Origin: Sphingopyxis sp. FD7 | GTDB lineage: Bacteria > Pseudomonadota > Alphaproteobacteria > Sphingomonadales > Sphingomonadaceae | Length of the DNA stretch: 64,000 nucleotides | Assembly (NCBI RefSeq): GCF_003609835.1 | Contig: NZ_AP017898.1 | Location: 248,001-312,000, forward strand | Direction: 5' to 3' | In this document: positions 21,121-39,897 of the stretch, in pieces | Numbering within the stretch: the stretch's first letter is position 1 | How the letters are laid out: each line of letters opens with the position of its first letter | Program-made: the position numbers and the translations under genes | The notes under the pieces: model-generated | Database searches by the model: none | The model's input: the letters and a program-made list of their open reading frames with translations, nothing else | What the model was told of the DNA's origin: nothing

Positions 21121-21144
21121 ATATTGGCATAGTAAATGCCATAT
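21121..21144. promoter_or_regulatory. Imperfect palindrome before the first sulfatase gene
   Basis: ATATTGGCAT and AATGCCATAT flank a short centre and pair as an inverted repeat with one extra base on the left. It lies 19 bases before the start codon, so a bound repressor would block expression. Which regulator binds it is unknown; it is unlike the operator before the second sulfatase. Confidence 0.45.
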
Positions 21145-21162
21145 CCCTTGGGGGTGGGAGTG

Positions 21163-22989
21163 ATGGCAGTATGCTGGAGGACCACTAGGCCGCGTCGCTT
21201 GGGCGGGTTCCGGCGTGCTGCCATCATCGCGCTGGCCTGTCTGCTGGGGACCACATCGGGTCAGGCGCAGCCGCGATCCGCGTCGCCGCGCCAGCCCAAT
21301 ATCGTGATCCTCCTCGCCGACGACTGGGGCTTTTCGGACGTCGGCGCCTTTGGTTCCGAAATCGCGACGCCGCATATCGACGCGCTGGCGCGCGCGGGGA
21401 TGCGCTTTTCCAATTTCCACGTCGCGGGCTCCTGCTCGCCGACGCGCGCGATGCTCCAGACGGGGGTGATGAACCACCGCAATGGGCTGGGCAACATGCC
21501 CGAGACGATCCCCGACGAGCATCGGGGCAAGCCGGGTTACGACACGGTGATGAACCTGCGCGTCGTGACGATCGCACAGTTGATGAAGGCGGCGGGATAT
21601 CGCACCTACCTCACCGGCAAATGGCATCTGGGCAGCGACGCGAAGCGCCTGCCGCACGCGCGCGGATATGACCGCGCGTTCAGCCTCGCCGATGCGGGCG
21701 CCGACAATTTCGAGCAAAGGCCGATCGAGGGGCTGTACGACAAGGCGAACTGGACCGAGAACGGCAAGCCCGCGACCCTGCCCAAGGATTATTATTCGTC
21801 GACCTTCGTCGTCGAAAAGATGATCGATTATATCGAGACGGACCGCCAGAGCGGCAAACCCTTCCTCGCCTCGATCAACTTCCTCGCCAACCATATCCCG
21901 GTGCAGGCGCCCGACAGCGACATTGCGCGCTATGCGGCGATGTACAGGGAGGGGTGGACGGCGCTGCGCGCGGCGCGCGCGCGGCGCGCGGCGGCGCTCG
22001 GCATCGTGCCCGCGGGCATGCCGATGGTGACGATGCCGACGACGCGCGACTGGCAGAAACTTGATGATGACGAGCGCGCGGCAGCGGTGCGCGTGATGCA
22101 GGCCTATGGCGGCATGGCGACCGCGATGGACCGCGAGATCGGGCGGCTGGTCGCGCATCTCAAGACCACGGGCGATTACGACAATACGATCTTTGTCTTC
22201 CTGTCCGACAATGGCGCCGAGCCGACCAATCCCTTTGCCAGCCTGCGCAATCGGCTGTTTCTGGACATGCAATATGATCTTGCGACCGACAATATCGGGC
22301 GGCGGGGCAGTTTTTCGGCGATCGGAGCCAGCTGGGCGAGCGCGGCGGCGGCGCCCTTGTCGGGGTATAAGTTCAGCGCGACCGAGGGCGGGCTGCGCGT
22401 CCCGCTGATCATCGCCTGGCCGGGGCATGGCGCGATTCAAGCGGGCGCGATCAGCGACGGGCTGGCGCATGTCACCGACCTCTTGCCCACGCTCGCCGAG
22501 CTGGCGGACGTGCCGCTGCACGATGGGCAATGGCAGGGACGGAGCGTCGAGCCGATCACGGGGCGCAGCCTGGTGCCGATGCTGGAAGGCGGGGCGGGCA
22601 GCGTCCATGGCGACGCGCCGCTCGGTTATGAATTGTCGGGCAATGCCGCGCTGTTTCGCGGCGATTACAAGCTGGTGCGCAACCTGCCGCCGACCGGCGA
22701 CGGCCAATGGCGGCTCTATCATCTCAGGACCGATCCCGGCGAGACGCGCGACCTGTCGGCGGCGATGCCTGATCGTTTCGCCGCGATGATGGCCGACTAC
22801 CGCGCCTATGCGAAGGCGAACGGCGTGCTCGACATGCCCGCGGGCTATACGGCCGACGAGCAGATCAACCGTTATGCGTGGGAGCAGCAGGGGCGCAAAC
22901 GCGCGATCAAGGCCGCGCTGTGGCTGGGCGGCGGGTTGATCGTGCTGGCGTTGCTGCTGTGGGGCCGGCGGCGGCGTGCGCGGGGGTAG
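21163..22989 (+). CDS. Arylsulfatase-type sulfatase with C-terminal membrane anchor
   Basis: 608 residues. A signal peptide precedes NIVILLADDWGFSDVGAFG (metal-binding aspartates). The formylglycine site is CSPTR with the cysteine at about residue 91, followed by the conserved TYLTGKWHLG. FLSDNGAEPT supplies further metal ligands. The extreme C-terminus has a hydrophobic helix (about 583-600) followed by WGRRRRARG, consistent with an inner membrane anchor and periplasmic catalytic domain. It should remove sulfate esters from glycans or aryl sulfates once its cysteine is converted by the neighbouring FGE. ATG 21163 follows GGTGGGAG. Confidence 0.9.
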   Translation: MAVCWRTTRPRRLGGFRRAAIIALACLLGTTSGQAQPRSASPRQPNIVILLADDWGFSDVGAFGSEIATPHIDALARAGMRFSNFHVAGSCSPTRAMLQTGVMNHRNGLGNMPETIPDEHRGKPGYDTVMNLRVVTIAQLMKAAGYRTYLTGKWHLGSDAKRLPHARGYDRAFSLADAGADNFEQRPIEGLYDKANWTENGKPATLPKDYYSSTFVVEKMIDYIETDRQSGKPFLASINFLANHIPVQAPDSDIARYAAMYREGWTALRAARARRAAALGIVPAGMPMVTMPTTRDWQKLDDDERAAAVRVMQAYGGMATAMDREIGRLVAHLKTTGDYDNTIFVFLSDNGAEPTNPFASLRNRLFLDMQYDLATDNIGRRGSFSAIGASWASAAAAPLSGYKFSATEGGLRVPLIIAWPGHGAIQAGAISDGLAHVTDLLPTLAELADVPLHDGQWQGRSVEPITGRSLVPMLEGGAGSVHGDAPLGYELSGNAALFRGDYKLVRNLPPTGDGQWRLYHLRTDPGETRDLSAAMPDRFAAMMADYRAYAKANGVLDMPAGYTADEQINRYAWEQQGRKRAIKAALWLGGGLIVLALLLWGRRRRARG

Positions 22990-23078
22990 TGTTGGTGCGG
23001 ATGTGGGCTGCCCTGGGCGGCGGGCGGTAGGCTGAATGGTTGAGGCTGTTGGCGGTTTTGGGGTGGATTCCGGCCGAT

Positions 23079-23097
23079 CCTCCCCCGCAGGGGGAGG
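23079..23097. terminator. Hairpin between convergent sulfatase and FGE genes
   Basis: An 8-base perfect stem (CCTCCCCC / GGGGGAGG) with a GCA loop lies between two genes that point at each other. There is no clear T-tract on either side, so it is a probable bidirectional transcription barrier at most. Confidence 0.4.
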
Positions 23098-23155
23098 AGC
23101 GCCGCGTCCGCAACCGGTCGCTTTCCGCCACTCCCGTCGTCACTACGGCGCGGGC

Positions 23156-24076
23156 CTACCCCTTCGGCGCCGGGCGCTTCGTGTCGATCAGGCGGAAGCC
23201 GATATGGTCGGTCCCCAGGCTGCGTTCCTGGAACTGGCGCGCGGCGGGGCGATAGCGGGCGCAATAATTGGCGGCGCACAGGAAGCTGCCGCCCTTGATG
23301 ACATTGCGCTCGCTGCCCGCCGCGCTCGTCGTCCATTCCCAGACATTGCCGATCAGGTCGTGGACGCCATGCGCATCCGCCGGAAAGCAGGCGACCGGCG
23401 CGCGCCCGGTGAAGCCATCGGTGCCGAGGTCGCGGAAGGGAAAGCTGCCCTGATAAAAATTGGCGCGCGGCTTGCCGTCCCTGCCGACCGGAACATTGCG
23501 GTCGGCGCCGCCGGTCGCCGCGGCGAGCTCCCATTGCTCCTCGCTCGGCAGCGCCTTGCCCTTCCATTTCGCGAAGGCGAGCGCGTCCTCATAGCCCACC
23601 TGCACGACCGGATCGCGGTCGCGCCCGTCGATATTCGTCGCGGGCCCCGCCGGGTGGCGCCACTCGGCGCCGACGACCCAGCGCCACCAGTTCGGATTGC
23701 CGTCGGTCGGGGCGGTGAAGACCGCCGAGCCGGGAATGAGCATGTCGGGCGGCGCGCCGGGGAGCGGCGGCGGGTCTTGCTCGGCGAGCGTCTTGTAACC
23801 CGTCGCGCGGACGAACTCGGCGAACTCGGCGTTGGTCACCTCATGCGTCGCCATCCAGAAGCCCGCGACGGCCACCTCGCGCGGTGGCCCCTCTTCGGGC
23901 AGCCGCGCGTCGGCGCCCATGGTGAAGGTCGCGCCAGGGATCCAGACATAATCCTGTGCCGGCATCGCGGGGCATTCGGGGGGGCTGGCTTCGGCCAGCG
24001 GCGGCGCGGCCTCGTCGCCGCACGCGGCGAGCGTGCCCGGCAGAAGCAGCGCAAGCAGCGCGGCGGCGCGGGTCAT
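23156..24076 (-). CDS. Formylglycine-generating enzyme (SUMF1/FGE family), predicted lipoprotein
   Basis: 306 residues. The FGE-sulfatase domain shows WIPGATFTMG, FWMATHEVTNAEFAEFV, LPSEEQWELAA, HDLIGNVWEW and, decisively, GGSFLCAANYCARYRPAAR: cysteines at about 267 and 272 match the copper-binding active pair of true aerobic FGEs. It would convert the CSPTR and CSPSR cysteines of the two flanking sulfatases to formylglycine. The N-terminus MTRAAALLALLLPGTLAAC is a lipoprotein signal, which implies work outside the cytoplasm. ATG 24076 overlaps the TetR stop (ATGA), so the two are coupled. Confidence 0.9.
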   Translation of the reverse strand: MTRAAALLALLLPGTLAACGDEAAPPLAEASPPECPAMPAQDYVWIPGATFTMGADARLPEEGPPREVAVAGFWMATHEVTNAEFAEFVRATGYKTLAEQDPPPLPGAPPDMLIPGSAVFTAPTDGNPNWWRWVVGAEWRHPAGPATNIDGRDRDPVVQVGYEDALAFAKWKGKALPSEEQWELAAATGGADRNVPVGRDGKPRANFYQGSFPFRDLGTDGFTGRAPVACFPADAHGVHDLIGNVWEWTTSAAGSERNVIKGGSFLCAANYCARYRPAARQFQERSLGTDHIGFRLIDTKRPAPKG

Positions 24077-24696
24077 TCGTCGGCCACCGTCGCCAGCAGC
24101 GCCTCGACCATATGCCCGATCACTTCGCCCGCTTCCTCGGCGGGCAGGCCCTGGTCGTGGCGCAGCGTGCGCCATGTGTGAAAGGAGAGCGCCGCGCACA
24201 GCGCCTCGACGCTGATGCGGTCGGTGAGTACGGAACCGGGGAGCAGGCGCAGGATCAGCTCGCGTTCGAGCATCACGACGCGGCTATATTGCCCCATCAG
24301 GAAGGGCGACTGATAACGTTTGATGTTCGCGGCGAGGCGGAAGGGCAAAGTCGTTTCAAAGACGCGGATACGGCGGCGGACGAGCTCGCGGACATTGGCG
24401 CGCCACGGCTGGTCGGGATAGGGCGCCATGATGATCGGCATCACGCGGTCGGTAACCGTCGCGGTGATCTCCGAATAGAGCGCGTCCATATCGTCGAAAT
24501 GGCGGAACACGGTGCGCAGGCCGATGCCCGCTTCCTCGGCGACGCGCGCCGCGCTCGGCGACAAATCGCCCGCGACAATCAGCTCCATCATCGCCTCGAC
24601 GATGCGCTTGTGGCTCGACCGGCTCCGCGCGCGGCGCCCGTCGATCCGCTCGGCGCCGCCGCGCGCCGCTTCCGATTTCCTCACCCCGATCGTCAT
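24073..24696 (-). CDS. TetR family transcriptional regulator of the sulfatase/FGE cluster
   Basis: 207 residues. The N-terminal helix-turn-helix (about 28-75) includes LSPSAARVAEEAGIGLRTVFRHFDDMDALY; the rest is a helical ligand domain without an assignable effector. It is transcribed away from the second sulfatase, with the palindrome at 24760-24776 between them. The stop overlaps the FGE start. Its likely role is repression of both itself/FGE and the divergent sulfatase. Confidence 0.85.
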   Translation of the reverse strand: MTIGVRKSEAARGGAERIDGRRARSRSSHKRIVEAMMELIVAGDLSPSAARVAEEAGIGLRTVFRHFDDMDALYSEITATVTDRVMPIIMAPYPDQPWRANVRELVRRRIRVFETTLPFRLAANIKRYQSPFLMGQYSRVVMLERELILRLLPGSVLTDRISVEALCAALSFHTWRTLRHDQGLPAEEAGEVIGHMVEALLATVADE

Positions 24697-35558: not shown

Positions 35559-36725
35559 CTAACCCGCCCAGATCTTTGCATAAAGCATCGCCATCTCGTC
35601 CGCATCGGGAACGCGCGGATTGTTCGCGGGCGAACCCGAGGCGATGGCCTGCGTGCACATCGTCGGGATCAGCGCATCCCATCGCGCGGCGTCGATGCCC
35701 CATGCTGCGGGGCCCGGCACCTCCAGTTCGCGGTTGAGCACCGCCAGCTCCTCGACCAGCCGCGCCACCGCCGCCTGATCGCCCTCGGCGTCGTCGGCGA
35801 CGCCCATCGCGCGCGCGCAGTCGGCGTAGCGGGGAAGCGCGGCGGGCGCCGACCAGGCGGTGACCGTCGGCAGCAGCATCGCGTTCGACAGGCCGTGGGG
35901 CACATGGAAGTGCGCGCCGATCGGCCGGCTCATCCCGTGGACGAGCGCGACCGAGCTGTTGGAGAAAGCCATCCCCGCCTGCGTCGCGCCCAGCATCATC
36001 GCCTCGCGCGCCGCGGCGTCCATCGGGTCGGCGCACACACGGCGAAGGTTCGGCGCAATCGCACGCATCGCGAGCAGCGCCATGCCGTCGCTGAACGGAT
36101 TGGCGCGGCGCGAGACATAGGCCTCGATCGCGTGCGTCAGCGAATCGATCCCCGTATCGGCGGTAAGGCGCTTCGGTTTGGTAAAGGTCAGCTCATAATC
36201 CACGAGCGCGGCGACGGGCAGATAGGCGAGGCCGGGGCAGAGCATCTTTTCGTCGGTCGCATCGTCGGTGATGATCGTGAAGCGCGTCGCTTCCGACCCG
36301 GTGCCCGCGGTCGTCGGGATCGCGATCACCGGCAGGCCGGCTATGTCCTGAACATGCGGCGCCTTGTAATCGGCCATCGCGCCGCCATGGGCCGCGAGCA
36401 GCGCGATCGCCTTGGCGCTGTCGAGCGGGCTGCCGCCGCCGAAACCGACGACGCAATCGTGACGGCCTTCCTTGAGGAAGGTCACGCCCCTGTCGATCGA
36501 GACGGTGGTAGGGTCGGGCACGGTGTCGGCGAACACGCGCGCGCCGATTCCGGCCGCCGCGAGAAGACCGGTCAGTTCATCGACGCGGCCGCTGCGCAGC
36601 AGCCAGGCGTCGGTGACGATCAGCGGGCGCGACAGGCCCAATGTTTCCAGCACCTCGGCCAGCTGTTTCGACGCGCCGCCGCCGACGCGGAGGATGCGGG
36701 GAAGGGCAATGTGCGCGATGCTCAA
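35559..36725 (-). CDS. Iron-containing (group III) alcohol dehydrogenase
   Basis: 388 residues. The NAD-binding GGGSPLDSAKAIALL and PTTAGTGSEATRF are followed by the metal region: DTGIDSLTHAIEAYVS and ALVHGMSRPIGAHFHVPHGLSN supply Asp and three His ligands for Fe2+. It should interconvert an alcohol and an aldehyde or ketone in the cytoplasm. TTG 36725 is preferred because AGGAG lies 8 bases before it; TTG 36743 is the other in-frame option. It lies 54 bases after the alpha/beta hydrolase on the same strand and may share its transcript. Confidence 0.87.
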   Translation of the reverse strand: MSIAHIALPRILRVGGGASKQLAEVLETLGLSRPLIVTDAWLLRSGRVDELTGLLAAAGIGARVFADTVPDPTTVSIDRGVTFLKEGRHDCVVGFGGGSPLDSAKAIALLAAHGGAMADYKAPHVQDIAGLPVIAIPTTAGTGSEATRFTIITDDATDEKMLCPGLAYLPVAALVDYELTFTKPKRLTADTGIDSLTHAIEAYVSRRANPFSDGMALLAMRAIAPNLRRVCADPMDAAAREAMMLGATQAGMAFSNSSVALVHGMSRPIGAHFHVPHGLSNAMLLPTVTAWSAPAALPRYADCARAMGVADDAEGDQAAVARLVEELAVLNRELEVPGPAAWGIDAARWDALIPTMCTQAIASGSPANNPRVPDADEMAMLYAKIWAG

Positions 36726-36779
36726 CGGACGATCTCCTGACAAGGCGGTCTTACGTCGTGGGGCGCAGGGCGGAAATCC

Positions 36780-37817
36780 CTATTGTGCGCGCTTGCCGAT
36801 CGTCCGTGCGAAGAGGTCGAGCGCGGCGGTGATCGCGGCGCGATGCGCTGCGGCGGGTCGGCGCTGGTGCGCGCAGAAAGGGAGCGGGTCCGGCGACCCC
36901 GCGGCGCAGGTGGTCAGGAAATCATAGTGCCCGGCGTCCGGCACGATCTGATGATGCGCGCGGGGCAGCCGCGCCGCGGCGACGAGGCCATTGGTGGTGT
37001 TGGGCGCCACACGGTCGGCGCCGCCGAGGATGAAGCGCGCCTCGGCGTCGATGGTGGCGAGGCTGGCGGGATCGAACGCCTGCACGATCGCGGGTGCCAT
37101 GACGAGCAGCGCGCGGATCCGGGGGTGCGGCGGTGCGGCGGCGACCTCCGCCAGCCGGGCGCGGGCCGGGGCACCGTCCAGAATCGCCAGCACGTCTTCG
37201 ATGGCAACCGCATATTCGATCTGCGGGCGGCAGACGCCGTCGTCGGGGTTGGCCGCGCAGAAGCGGCGCAGCCGTTCGGGGTCGACGCGCGCGCCCGCGA
37301 GCGCGAGCGCGGTGAAGCCGCCCGCCGAAAAGCCCGCGGCGGCGACGCGGTCGGGGTCGAGCAGCGGGCCAAGCTCGGCGTCGGCGGCGACATGGTCATA
37401 GGCACGCCGCAGATCGCCGGGGCGTTCAAAGAAAAGCGCGGCGCCCGCCCTGGTCATCGGATCGAGCCCGTTGTTGCCGGGATGGTCGACGCCGATCACG
37501 ACATAACCCGCCTCGGCCATTGCGGCGGCGAACCAGTCCATCGCGACCGCTGCGCCACCGAAACCGTGCGAGAGGAGGATGACGCCGCGACGTCCCCCGG
37601 CGACGGACGGCGCGGTTCCGGCGCCGTCATCGCCTGCGGCAGGATACCAGACGGTGATGCGCAGCCGCGTGCTGCCATCGGCGCTGCGTATCGCCGCCGA
37701 CGGATGATCGGCAATCATCAACCGCTGTCCGATCACTGGCCCGGCCCACGTCGCCGGGGCAGCGCACAGCAGCAGAAACAGGACAGCGAGGCGCAGCGGT
37801 GCGCGAAGCCCGATCAT
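36780..37817 (-). CDS. Exported alpha/beta hydrolase (PAF-acetylhydrolase/dienelactone-hydrolase-like)
   Basis: 345 residues with a signal peptide (MIGLRAPLRLAVLFLLLCAAPATWA). The alpha/beta-hydrolase core shows VILLSHGFGGAA (oxyanion region), the nucleophile elbow GFSAGGF, and the catalytic histidine in DAGHYDFLTTC. It probably cleaves an ester or lactone in the periplasm. ATG 37817 is spaced six bases after AAGGA. It stands between the XRE-LuxR regulator upstream and the alcohol dehydrogenase downstream, all on the minus strand with short gaps. Confidence 0.82.
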   Translation of the reverse strand: MIGLRAPLRLAVLFLLLCAAPATWAGPVIGQRLMIADHPSAAIRSADGSTRLRITVWYPAAGDDGAGTAPSVAGGRRGVILLSHGFGGAAVAMDWFAAAMAEAGYVVIGVDHPGNNGLDPMTRAGAALFFERPGDLRRAYDHVAADAELGPLLDPDRVAAAGFSAGGFTALALAGARVDPERLRRFCAANPDDGVCRPQIEYAVAIEDVLAILDGAPARARLAEVAAAPPHPRIRALLVMAPAIVQAFDPASLATIDAEARFILGGADRVAPNTTNGLVAAARLPRAHHQIVPDAGHYDFLTTCAAGSPDPLPFCAHQRRPAAAHRAAITAALDLFARTIGKRAQ

Positions 37818-37892
37818 CACCTGTCCTTTCTCAGCGCGCACCCATGACCATTTTCGCCCTATGGATCGATTACCTGGCGCGTCATGGCGCGG

Positions 37893-38912
37893 TCAAATGA
37901 GCTTGAGCGCCGTGGCGCGGCACGCCGCCATCGCCGGGCTGGCGCACCCCATCGTCGCCGCGATGCTGCGCAACCGCCGCTCGACCTCCGCTTCGGCGAG
38001 CGCGAGCCTTTGTCCGATCCCGTCGATCGAATAGCCGGCCGCAAAAAAAGCGAGCATGTCGCGGTCGGCCGCTGCGAGACGGACCGGATCGTTGACCGGC
38101 AGCGCGGGTGTGCCCAGCCGGGCAAGCCGGTCGAGCAGCGCGGTTGCGACGAGGGTGACGGCGGTGCGCGTCGCAAGGTCGGTATCGATCGGCCCTGCCC
38201 AGGCCGACAGCGCGCGCACCGAGCCGTCGCCCATCTGAACCGGCATGACAAAGCCATCGGCGATCTGAAAATCCTGTGCCTCGTCGAGGATGCGGCGCTG
38301 GAGCGGCGAAAGCAGGCCAGGTGGAATGTCGCTCCAGAAAAAGCCGGCCGATGCGGCAGCGGTGGCGCGGATCAGATAATCATGGTTGCGATAGCCGTTC
38401 ACTTCATTGTGACGAAGCCAGCCGATCGCGGGCCGCCCGTCGGCGTCGCGCGTCACCTCCCAGCCATGGGGGCCGCGCCGCAGCGTGCCGGTCATAAAAT
38501 GGGCGATACCGTTCGCCGCGAGGAAGCGCGCGGCAATGTCGACGGCGGCCGCCGCGCCGCCGGCGCCCGCAATCGCCACCGCGGTCTCGAAGGCGGCCAA
38601 AGCCAGCGACGCCGCTTCGGCGGCGGTGGCCGCTGCGGCGGCCGGCGCGATCGTTGGGGCAAATCCCGCAGCGAGCAGCATCGCGTTGCGTTCGGCGGGC
38701 GCCAGCGCGAGCGCATCGGCGATACGCGCGACCATGTCGGCGCTCGGGCGCGCGCGGCCCTTTTCGAGAAAGCCGAGGTGGCGCGGCGAAATGCCCATGT
38801 CGAGCGCCAGGTTCATCTGCGAACGTCCGTCGCGTTTGCGATGCTGGCGCAGCAGCGCGGGAAAGCCGGTCGGGCACGGGCGGTCTGCGGCAAGGGAAAG
38901 CGAGAATGCCAT
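37893..38912 (-). CDS. Chimeric regulator: XRE helix-turn-helix + LuxR autoinducer-binding + LuxR helix-turn-helix
   Basis: 339 residues with three apparent domains. Residues about 18-88 are an XRE/HTH_3 domain (LLRQHRKRDGRSQMNLAL, ISPRHLGFLEKGRARPSADM, AERNAMLLAAGFAP) like that of MmyB-type regulators. Residues about 120-260 look like a LuxR-family autoinducer-binding domain: GWLRHNEVNGYRNHDYLIRA, FFWSDIP, LSPLQRRILDEAQDFQIADG, FVMPV. Residues about 272-339 look like the LuxR C-terminal HTH (RDMLAFFAAGYSIDGIGQRL, EVERRLRSIAATMGC, ALKLI). Two DNA-binding domains around one ligand domain are unusual. No LuxI-type synthase is present in this window. Confidence 0.8.
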   Translation of the reverse strand: MAFSLSLAADRPCPTGFPALLRQHRKRDGRSQMNLALDMGISPRHLGFLEKGRARPSADMVARIADALALAPAERNAMLLAAGFAPTIAPAAAAATAAEAASLALAAFETAVAIAGAGGAAAAVDIAARFLAANGIAHFMTGTLRRGPHGWEVTRDADGRPAIGWLRHNEVNGYRNHDYLIRATAAASAGFFWSDIPPGLLSPLQRRILDEAQDFQIADGFVMPVQMGDGSVRALSAWAGPIDTDLATRTAVTLVATALLDRLARLGTPALPVNDPVRLAAADRDMLAFFAAGYSIDGIGQRLALAEAEVERRLRSIAATMGCASPAMAACRATALKLI

Positions 38913-39002
38913 GGCGCTGCACTTCGTCGTCGGTCGGAACGCGCTTCACAGCCTAATTGGGGATCGGCAATTTATCCAGCGCTATGCGAAACATTATTAC
39001 GC

Positions 39003-39017
39003 CTACCTGCGAGGTAG
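39003..39017. promoter_or_regulatory. Palindrome between the two divergent regulators
   Basis: CTACCT-GCG-AGGTAG is a perfect 6-base inverted repeat in the 142-base gap between the XRE-LuxR chimera (minus strand) and the XRE regulator (plus strand). It lies 38 bases before the latter's start and is a plausible operator for one or both. Confidence 0.45.
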
Positions 39018-39054
39018 TCGACCGGAACGCCCTTGGGTCACATAGGCGGCACCC

Positions 39055-39897
39055 ATGACCAGCCGCCTCGGGCCCATGCTGAAGGCCATTCGTGAACGCG
39101 CGGGCATCGCGCAGCTCGAACTTTCGCTGCGCATGAATGTATCGCAACGACATATCAGCTTCGTCGAAAGCGGCCGCTCGCGCCCGAGTCGCGACCTGAT
39201 TGAAGCGTGGCTGGGCGAAGCGGACGCGCCGCCTTCGCTGCGCAATGCGGTGCTGCTGGCGGCGGGATATGCGCCTGCATCGCCCGACGTTTCGCCGTGC
39301 GACCCGAGGCTGGCGGTCGCGATCGCGGCGCTCGACCGCACGCTCGACCTGCACGAACCCTATCCCGGCCTGGTTTTCGACGCCGACTGGCAGGCGCATC
39401 TCACCAACCGCAGCGCACGGCGGCTGATGCGACTGAACCTGCCCGATTTCGTCGCCGCGCTCGATGATCTGTCGCTGGGGTTCAGCATGATCGACGCCTT
39501 GATCCACCCCGGCGGCATGTTCCGCTTTATGCGCGATCCGTGGATCGGCGGCGGCGCTTTGCTCGACCAGTTGCGCCGCGAGCAATGGGTGCGCCCCGCG
39601 CTCGAGCCGCGCGCCGACCGCGTCGAAGCCTCGATGATCGAACGCTTCGGCCCGCGCCCGTCGCAGCCCGCGACGCCCTCGGCCGATCCCTATCTGAACC
39701 TCGTTTTCGACACGCCGCAGGGGGTGATGCGCTTTTTCACGATTCAGAGTGTCTTTGCCTTGCCTCAGGATGTCACGCTGGCGTCGCTGCGCATGGAGCT
39801 CTGGTTTCCTTCCGACGAGCCGACGCGCGCCGCGATGAAGGCGCTCGCGAGCAGCGATGCAGTTCCCGGCGAGCCGACGGTCACCGCGAAACCATAA
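39055..39897 (+). CDS. XRE regulator with MmyB-like ligand-binding domain
   Basis: 280 residues. The N-terminal XRE HTH (LKAIRERAGIAQLELSLRMNVSQRHISFVESGRSRP, quoted in part) ends in RNAVLLAAGYAPA, the same junction as in the divergent chimera. The rest (about 95-270) fits the MmyB-like PAS-type ligand domain (PGLVFDADWQAHLTNRSA; PYLNLVFDTPQG; MELWFPSDEPTRAAM). Such regulators are usually repressors or activators of adjacent dehydrogenase or hydrolase genes. It is divergent from the chimera and is followed closely by a tRNA gene on the other strand. Confidence 0.85.
   Translation: MTSRLGPMLKAIRERAGIAQLELSLRMNVSQRHISFVESGRSRPSRDLIEAWLGEADAPPSLRNAVLLAAGYAPASPDVSPCDPRLAVAIAALDRTLDLHEPYPGLVFDADWQAHLTNRSARRLMRLNLPDFVAALDDLSLGFSMIDALIHPGGMFRFMRDPWIGGGALLDQLRREQWVRPALEPRADRVEASMIERFGPRPSQPATPSADPYLNLVFDTPQGVMRFFTIQSVFALPQDVTLASLRMELWFPSDEPTRAAMKALASSDAVPGEPTVTAKP

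Follow-up and report, generated by a model that had tools for sequence, protein, structure and literature searches.

A single open frame in Sphingopyxis sp. FD7 raises the question of how a LuxR-type receptor that carries an unrelated helix-turn-helix (HTH) at its front makes contact with DNA. A first-pass annotation of the window (the 64,000-nucleotide stretch of DNA that we analyzed) had described the encoded protein, here called REG, as a chimera with two DNA-binding domains around an autoinducer-type ligand domain, which might bridge two operators or sense a signal with one head and autoregulate with the other. Our analysis leads to a different answer. REG is probably a LuxR-type receptor whose DNA-binding role has passed to its N-terminal MmyB-like XRE HTH.

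REG occupies exactly 37893-38912 on the minus strand and, as first described, is one uninterrupted frame, running from an ATG for 339 amino acids. Residues 19-77 (38682-38858, minus strand) make up the N-terminal XRE/MmyB-like HTH and match HTH_31 in Pfam (E 5.6e-11, 43 bits, cut-off 27), and residues 121-261 (38130-38552, minus strand) make up the autoinducer-binding domain and match Autoind_bind (PF03472; E 3.6e-18, 66 bits, cut-off 23). The claim that an XRE HTH and an autoinducer-binding domain share one chain is therefore borne out, with both domains over their Pfam cut-offs. Residues 275-339 (37896-38090, minus strand) hold a degenerate remnant of a LuxR C-terminal HTH, for which the GerE match stays below its cut-off. 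The ligand domain of the MmyB family, MLTR_LBD (PF17765), gave no match in REG at E<=1 in Pfam. In NCBIfam the best match, to the PA1136-type autoinducer regulator, scored 34.4 bits and so fell far short of the 215.6 cut-off, and a phmmer search of solved structures found RhlR (E 1.8e-4) and LasR (E 5.2e-4) colinear with the REG ligand domain and tail. A model predicted from REG and the nearly identical LK2115 protein was of poor quality, with a mean pLDDT of 44.6. Because two further genomes, G073 (95% identity) and G041 (90%), encode REG colinearly at the same locus, the frame is not an assembly join, and the concern that it had been joined by error falls away. We conclude that REG is a LuxR receptor type with an XRE head at its front and the usual DNA-binding tail decayed or missing.

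The same domain order was sought in other genomes, as the annotation had suggested, and it does recur. Using a profile of three members, we found full-length matches to the XRE and ligand domains in 10 of 80 Sphingopyxis genomes; the XRE-Autoind_bind proteins are a real, small family. The long form occurs in the window genome (G000), Sphingopyxis sp. LK2115 (G073), and G041, with its tail in frame in all three. The short form, of 265-271 amino acids, occurs in seven genomes (G010, G020, G042, G069, G052, G086, and G056); these proteins stop a few residues past the ligand domain, about where a LuxR HTH would begin, and have no LuxR HTH. Short-form XRE heads are 62-68% identical to that of the window protein. 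Across both forms, dN/dS for the XRE and ligand domains ranges from 0 to 0.24 in 10 pairs (3 long, and 7 of the 21 possible short).

In wider samples, full-length matches were listed for this genus only. In the order sample, all six genomes that matched at 1e-25 (of 396) were Sphingopyxis. In the class sample, 73 of 385 genomes matched at 1e-14 and, among the matches listed, only the window protein passes profile position 142 of 270; in the phylum sample, 65 of 398 matched at 1e-15, with only G000 and G052 at full length and the others stopping by position 140. Because each of these three runs scored only five to six candidates per genome, a divergent fusion might have escaped them. An Autoind_bind search of 289 class genomes gave a match in 62, and inspection by eye found no XRE head in 10 other long Autoind_bind frames of the class (eight above 310 amino acids and two of 302-304; one further stretch, L109, was left out of the comparison). 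The surplus length of these ten looks like upstream read-through. A frame-length filter of this kind would miss short fusions of about 265 amino acids, on which the profile searches bear, and the search of named-collection contigs with one REG protein finds close relatives only. Origins on mobile elements were also considered and rejected: the plasmid search yielded no fusion and two LuxR matches with query coverage of 52% and 23%, and for phages there was no match to REG at E<=1e-5 and no viral-contig relative.

The relationships of the family were examined with one tree for each domain. In the XRE-domain tree, the 10 members form one clade (99/98 support) that splits into long (98/89) and short (99/95) forms and stands apart from both the divergent MmyB neighbor and the genus's common paralogue; this tree holds 85 domains (69 different) with few columns, its bootstrap did not settle, and the adjoining fork is weak (80/76). 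The REG head places among heads labelled MmyB. For the other rows this label is ours, and MLTR_LBD was over its cut-off in those scanned (P0002, L124, and L128). Domains of at least 62 residues were taken, which left out L068 and L026; L068 likewise has MLTR_LBD over its Pfam cut-off. The ligand-domain tree (26 rows) also recovers the family as a single clade (100/100), whose branch is long and separate from the LuxRs encoded in the window genome. Taken together, the two clades suggest a single origin of the fusion. Since the LuxR tail lies in its normal place behind the long-form ligand domain, the simplest history would be one in which the XRE head was added in front of a whole LuxR receptor and the tail was subsequently lost in the short lineage.

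The C-terminal tail decides how much of the original description can stand. A LuxR C-terminal HTH had been claimed, and its homology is genuine, but the domain is degenerate. The proposed Pfam check, which placed Autoind_bind over its cut-off, found GerE (PF00196) at residues 283-332 with E 0.062 and 13.4 bits, under the cut-off of 23.5, and gave no GerE match at E<=0.5 in the other two long orthologues. The three luxI-linked LuxRs of the genome all score above the GerE cut-off (43.2, 30.9, and 32.7 bits, the last for a 205-residue piece of L003 scanned without its N-terminal part), as does a LuxR solo of the genus used as a control (36.1 bits). When scored with a profile built from 11 LuxR tails, those of the three long forms reach 29-32 bits, gap-free over 64-65 residues, and 2000 shuffles of the window protein's tail gave at most 6.6 bits. 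Under leave-one-out scoring, 15 LuxR tails gave 52-105 bits compared with 28-34 bits for the three long-form tails. HTH positions E178, L182, and G188 read D, L, and G in the three long forms (the genome's own LuxRs have Q or R at E178, so this position does not discriminate), and the recognition-helix region of the REG tail retains R312, R313, and R315. The profile scores point to a real LuxR HTH homologue, but a degenerate one.

Rates of change agree with a tail under relaxed, not absent, selection. For G000 compared with G041, dN/dS rises from 0.04 in the XRE head to 0.11 in the ligand domain and 0.31 in the tail; the G000/G073 values are, in the same order, 0.11, 0.08, and 0.28. For the G000/G041 pair, with counts rounded, the tail is less constrained than the XRE head (Fisher p 0.012), differs weakly from the ligand domain (p 0.096), and remains below neutral, its nonsynonymous rate being lower than its synonymous rate (p 0.004). 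Because some constraint persists, the tail may retain a role, perhaps in dimerization or in some remaining contact with DNA.

If the XRE head is the part that binds DNA, a site for it may lie upstream of the gene. The 142-bp gap between REG and the divergent mmyB gene does contain the palindrome noted in the first description, CTACCT-N3-AGGTAG (CTACCTGCGAGGTAG), at 39003-39017 (unstranded), which we regard as a candidate XRE-type operator. In the sequence, its half-sites are 9 bp apart, center to center. The palindrome is invariant in the three long-form loci and lies within a 40-nucleotide invariant block on the minus strand (38984-39023), which also holds promoter-like hexamers and is the longest invariant run among the three genomes, equalled in 116 of 20000 column permutations. 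The promoter-like sequence, TCGACT-17-AATAAT at 39021-38993, is directed toward REG; 2 such sites were found in the 2.6 kb scanned, compared with 0.2 expected. The palindrome overlaps the first hexamer and the spacer, a geometry that would suit autorepression of REG.

The pattern CTACCTNNNAGGTAG occurs in 4 of 80 genus genomes, once in each long-form genome at the REG locus and once elsewhere in G070; the copies in the long-form genomes count as a single site passed on by descent. Reading CTACCTNNNAGGTAG backwards gives a control of identical composition, which is present in 14 of the 80 genomes. One such site is therefore unremarkable, and it is the conserved block that carries the weight. 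Three wider roles for the palindrome were set aside: with one site per long-form genome it is not a regulon motif; its absence from all seven short-form genomes leaves it unsupported as the common operator of the whole family; and it is not a lux box, because the search for a lux-box-like site in the REG-mmyB gap stayed at chance level (the best site fits 6 of 10 positions, a score that 1902 of 2000 shuffles also attained). Short-form REG upstream regions share other conserved stretches (L034-L036, L038-L040, and L043), namely CCTTAGG near -108 in six of seven and ATCGGGCTATGA before the start in all seven.

Either XRE protein could bind the palindrome, REG or the divergent MmyB, which is an equally good candidate. 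That the short-form genomes lack the pattern, despite the similarity of their XRE heads to that of the window protein, speaks against REG as the binder. The latter (39055-39897, plus strand, 280 amino acids) is an MmyB-family regulator with an XRE domain and an MLTR_LBD (Pfam: HTH_3 33.9 bits, cut-off 23; MLTR_LBD 38.1 bits, cut-off 26.3). Genome G058 has an mmyB orthologue (59-60% identity), no full-length REG match (an XRE-only match lies elsewhere), and no palindrome. This one case weakly links the palindrome to REG rather than to MmyB. Of the 80 genus genomes, just four have a close mmyB copy (at least 59% identity), and three of these four carry the long form of REG. In G058 (L133, 7754-14164), the orthologue adjoins sulfatase, FGE-like, and TetR genes, names given from resemblance; in the window, genes named in the same way lie at 21136-24696, about 15 kb from mmyB. 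The 16-kb stretch of G058 has no match to the LacI, glycosidase, or TonB genes that separate the two sites in the window, nor to REG beyond the XRE match to mmyB.

Downstream of REG and on the same strand lie an alpha/beta hydrolase (36780-37841; Abhydrolase_1, 37.9 bits), after a gap of 51 bp, and an iron-containing alcohol dehydrogenase (35559-36743; Fe-ADH, E 5.8e-44), the third gene of a putative operon. Both genes are found in all three long-form loci, and the hydrolase adjoins REG in each. The hydrolase also has a weak PETase-like match (28.5 bits, cut-off 28) and falls far under the cut-off of the bis(hydroxyethyl) terephthalate hydrolase model. The short forms occupy another locus, where a hydrolase lies downstream in all seven and an acyl-CoA dehydrogenase and a FAS1-like dehydratase lie divergently in all seven (the G086 contig ends within the dehydratase gene). 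Both forms of REG thus have an alpha/beta hydrolase and redox enzymes as neighbors.

Partner luxI genes lie elsewhere. No luxI matched in the window, in agreement with the first-pass annotation, and the solo-receptor label given there holds by position, as the nearest luxI match is about 107 kb off on the contig. The genome as a whole does have luxI matches: of its four Autoind_bind matches, three are luxR genes that each adjoin one of the three luxI matches, and the fourth is REG. With LuxI-type enzymes elsewhere in the genome, an endogenous AHL is a possible signal for REG. The three luxR-luxI pairs are L001, L002, and L003, and their LuxRs have Q or R at the usually invariant E178. L001 also contains a second open frame of 191 residues with a LuxR-type HTH toward its N-terminal side (E 1.1e-11, own LuxR profile).

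The ligand pocket itself is both conserved and altered. We take LasR position 129 to be the pocket serine site, and the equivalent serine is kept in 10 of 10 family members. Also retained in all ten are W57, D70, W85, and G113 (TraR numbering), and two substitutions are fixed throughout, Y61 to N and P71 to Y. REG thus keeps four rather than all six of the ligand-domain residues W57, Y61, D70, P71, W85, and G113, a list that follows PMC4338825 and PMC10134790. Such a pocket would fit either an unusual AHL or another acyl-type molecule, and Y61N and P71Y in every member argue against a plain AHL.

With this evidence in hand, the alternatives to a swapped head can be weighed. If both the XRE head and the LuxR HTH bound DNA, REG would be a two-headed regulator that bridges two operators or divides sensing and autoregulation between its ends, as first proposed. 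The tail has been kept in frame in all three long forms, evolves at dN/dS below 1 (p 0.004), is clearly homologous to LuxR HTHs, and still has its three arginines in the recognition-helix region, which speaks for a second head. It is also, however, the weakest of all LuxR tails compared, is less constrained than the XRE head (p 0.012), and is missing in 7 of 10 family members, and the intergenic region offers no conspicuous lux-box-like site. Two working heads bridging two operators are thus not what the tail scores, constraint, distribution, and upstream region indicate, and we consider this reading improbable. A failed fusion heading to loss might explain the degenerate tail and the patchy occurrence in 10 of 80 genus genomes. 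A gene in decay would hardly be expected to show purifying selection on the XRE and ligand domains of long and short forms alike (dN/dS 0 to 0.24), to be free of internal stops, or to have a conserved upstream block, and we regard such decay as very improbable.

The remaining alternative overlaps the swapped-head explanation and differs from its AHL version in the ligand only. Here the ligand domain would have shifted its specificity to a compound (acyl, ester, or alcohol) on which the neighboring hydrolase and dehydrogenase act. With a hydrolase and a redox enzyme beside both forms, a catabolite ligand is a serious rival: the long form is followed by the hydrolase and the Fe-alcohol dehydrogenase, every short form combines a downstream hydrolase with the divergent acyl-CoA dehydrogenase and FAS1-like dehydratase, Y61N and P71Y are fixed, and the nearest luxI match is distant. 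On the other hand, all ten members keep the S129 equivalent along with four of the six canonical residues of the AHL pocket, and the genome has three LuxI-type genes. We judge a catabolite sensor to be quite possible. That the REG ligand is an AHL or AHL-like molecule is likewise a tentative proposal, leaning toward doubtful, with roughly equal odds for a catabolite of the acyl or ester type.

Support for the swapped-head explanation includes seven short orthologues that retain the XRE and ligand domains without a LuxR HTH, a long-form tail that scores lowest of the LuxR tails compared and is under weaker constraint than the XRE head, the single origin of the family, its retained pocket residues, and the conserved block with the palindrome. 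Under this explanation, an XRE head would have joined the front of a complete LuxR-type receptor, after which the old C-terminal HTH would have decayed in the long form or been lost in the short form of seven genomes. A REG dimer would contact DNA through its XRE heads, with the autoinducer-binding pocket taking up a small acylated molecule that might switch dimerization or head orientation, as proposed for MltR. As a local, ligand-responsive regulator, REG would most likely govern its own promoter, and hence the REG-hydrolase-alcohol dehydrogenase operon, via the palindrome that this promoter contains; the divergent mmyB gene may be a further target. That the XRE head is the sole working DNA binder in REG seems highly probable; autoregulation through the palindrome at 39003-39017 is a nearly balanced proposition. 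It is rather unlikely, though arguable, that XRE-headed LuxRs form a new receptor class in which an AHL-type pocket reads the cell's own LuxI signal and acts via an MmyB-like XRE operator, not a lux box. If they do, a metabolic operon would be under quorum control outside the lux-box regulon.

Whatever the ligand, this family amounts to a natural experiment, an output swap in a much-studied sensor in which an XRE head was gained and the LuxR HTH became degenerate in one branch and disappeared in the other. It makes testable how LuxR-fold ligand binding couples to an unrelated DNA-binding head at the opposite end of the chain. It also reveals a blind spot, as survey pipelines demanding a LuxR C-terminal domain would omit the short members. 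The Sphingomonadaceae survey in PMC4288048, by its account of what was counted, required the LuxR C-terminal signature, which REG short forms would be expected to lack. The survey in PMC10134790 selected PF03472 proteins without luxI nearby and does not use the term "XRE" in its main text, so XRE-headed proteins may sit unremarked in its lists. Among the papers listed in open-access searches for this architecture, none mentions in its title or abstract opening an XRE head joined to an autoinducer-binding domain.

Comparison with known systems places REG between several of them. Like LuxR receptors and LuxR solos (LasR, RhlR, and TraR), it has an Autoind_bind domain over the cut-off and four of six pocket residues; unlike them, it has an extra XRE head, a degenerate or missing tail, and the Y61N and P71Y substitutions, and at 339 amino acids it exceeds the 230-270 given for LuxR receptors in PMC10134790. 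With the MmyB-like/MltR family (PDB 3pxp), it shares an XRE head followed by a PAS-related ligand domain in the same order, and the short form (265-271 amino acids) is of similar length. MltR, as described in PMC3406030, where it is compared with TraR, has an XRE head and a PAS-like ligand domain with a bound fatty acid. In the model given there the ligand promotes dimerization, and the recognition helices are described as spanning about 10 bp, compared with the 9 bp between the palindrome half-sites here. The ligand domain of REG, in contrast, is Autoind_bind with no MLTR_LBD match, whereas its neighbor and three other XRE proteins have MLTR_LBD. Phaeobacter prophages carry xre-luxR-luxI modules, one of two of which is reported to need XRE and LuxR at one promoter, while in the other the XRE protein represses (PMC13345283). 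XRE and LuxR proteins acting on a single promoter there resemble the XRE and LuxR parts combined in REG, but those modules consist of separate prophage genes with a luxI, and REG is one chain with no adjoining luxI and no phage match. Finally, CerN of Cereibacter sphaeroides, according to PMC11655674, likewise has a ligand domain of the LuxR type that has dispensed with the LuxR HTH; CerN, however, has no DNA-binding domain and antagonizes CerM, whereas REG has its XRE head.
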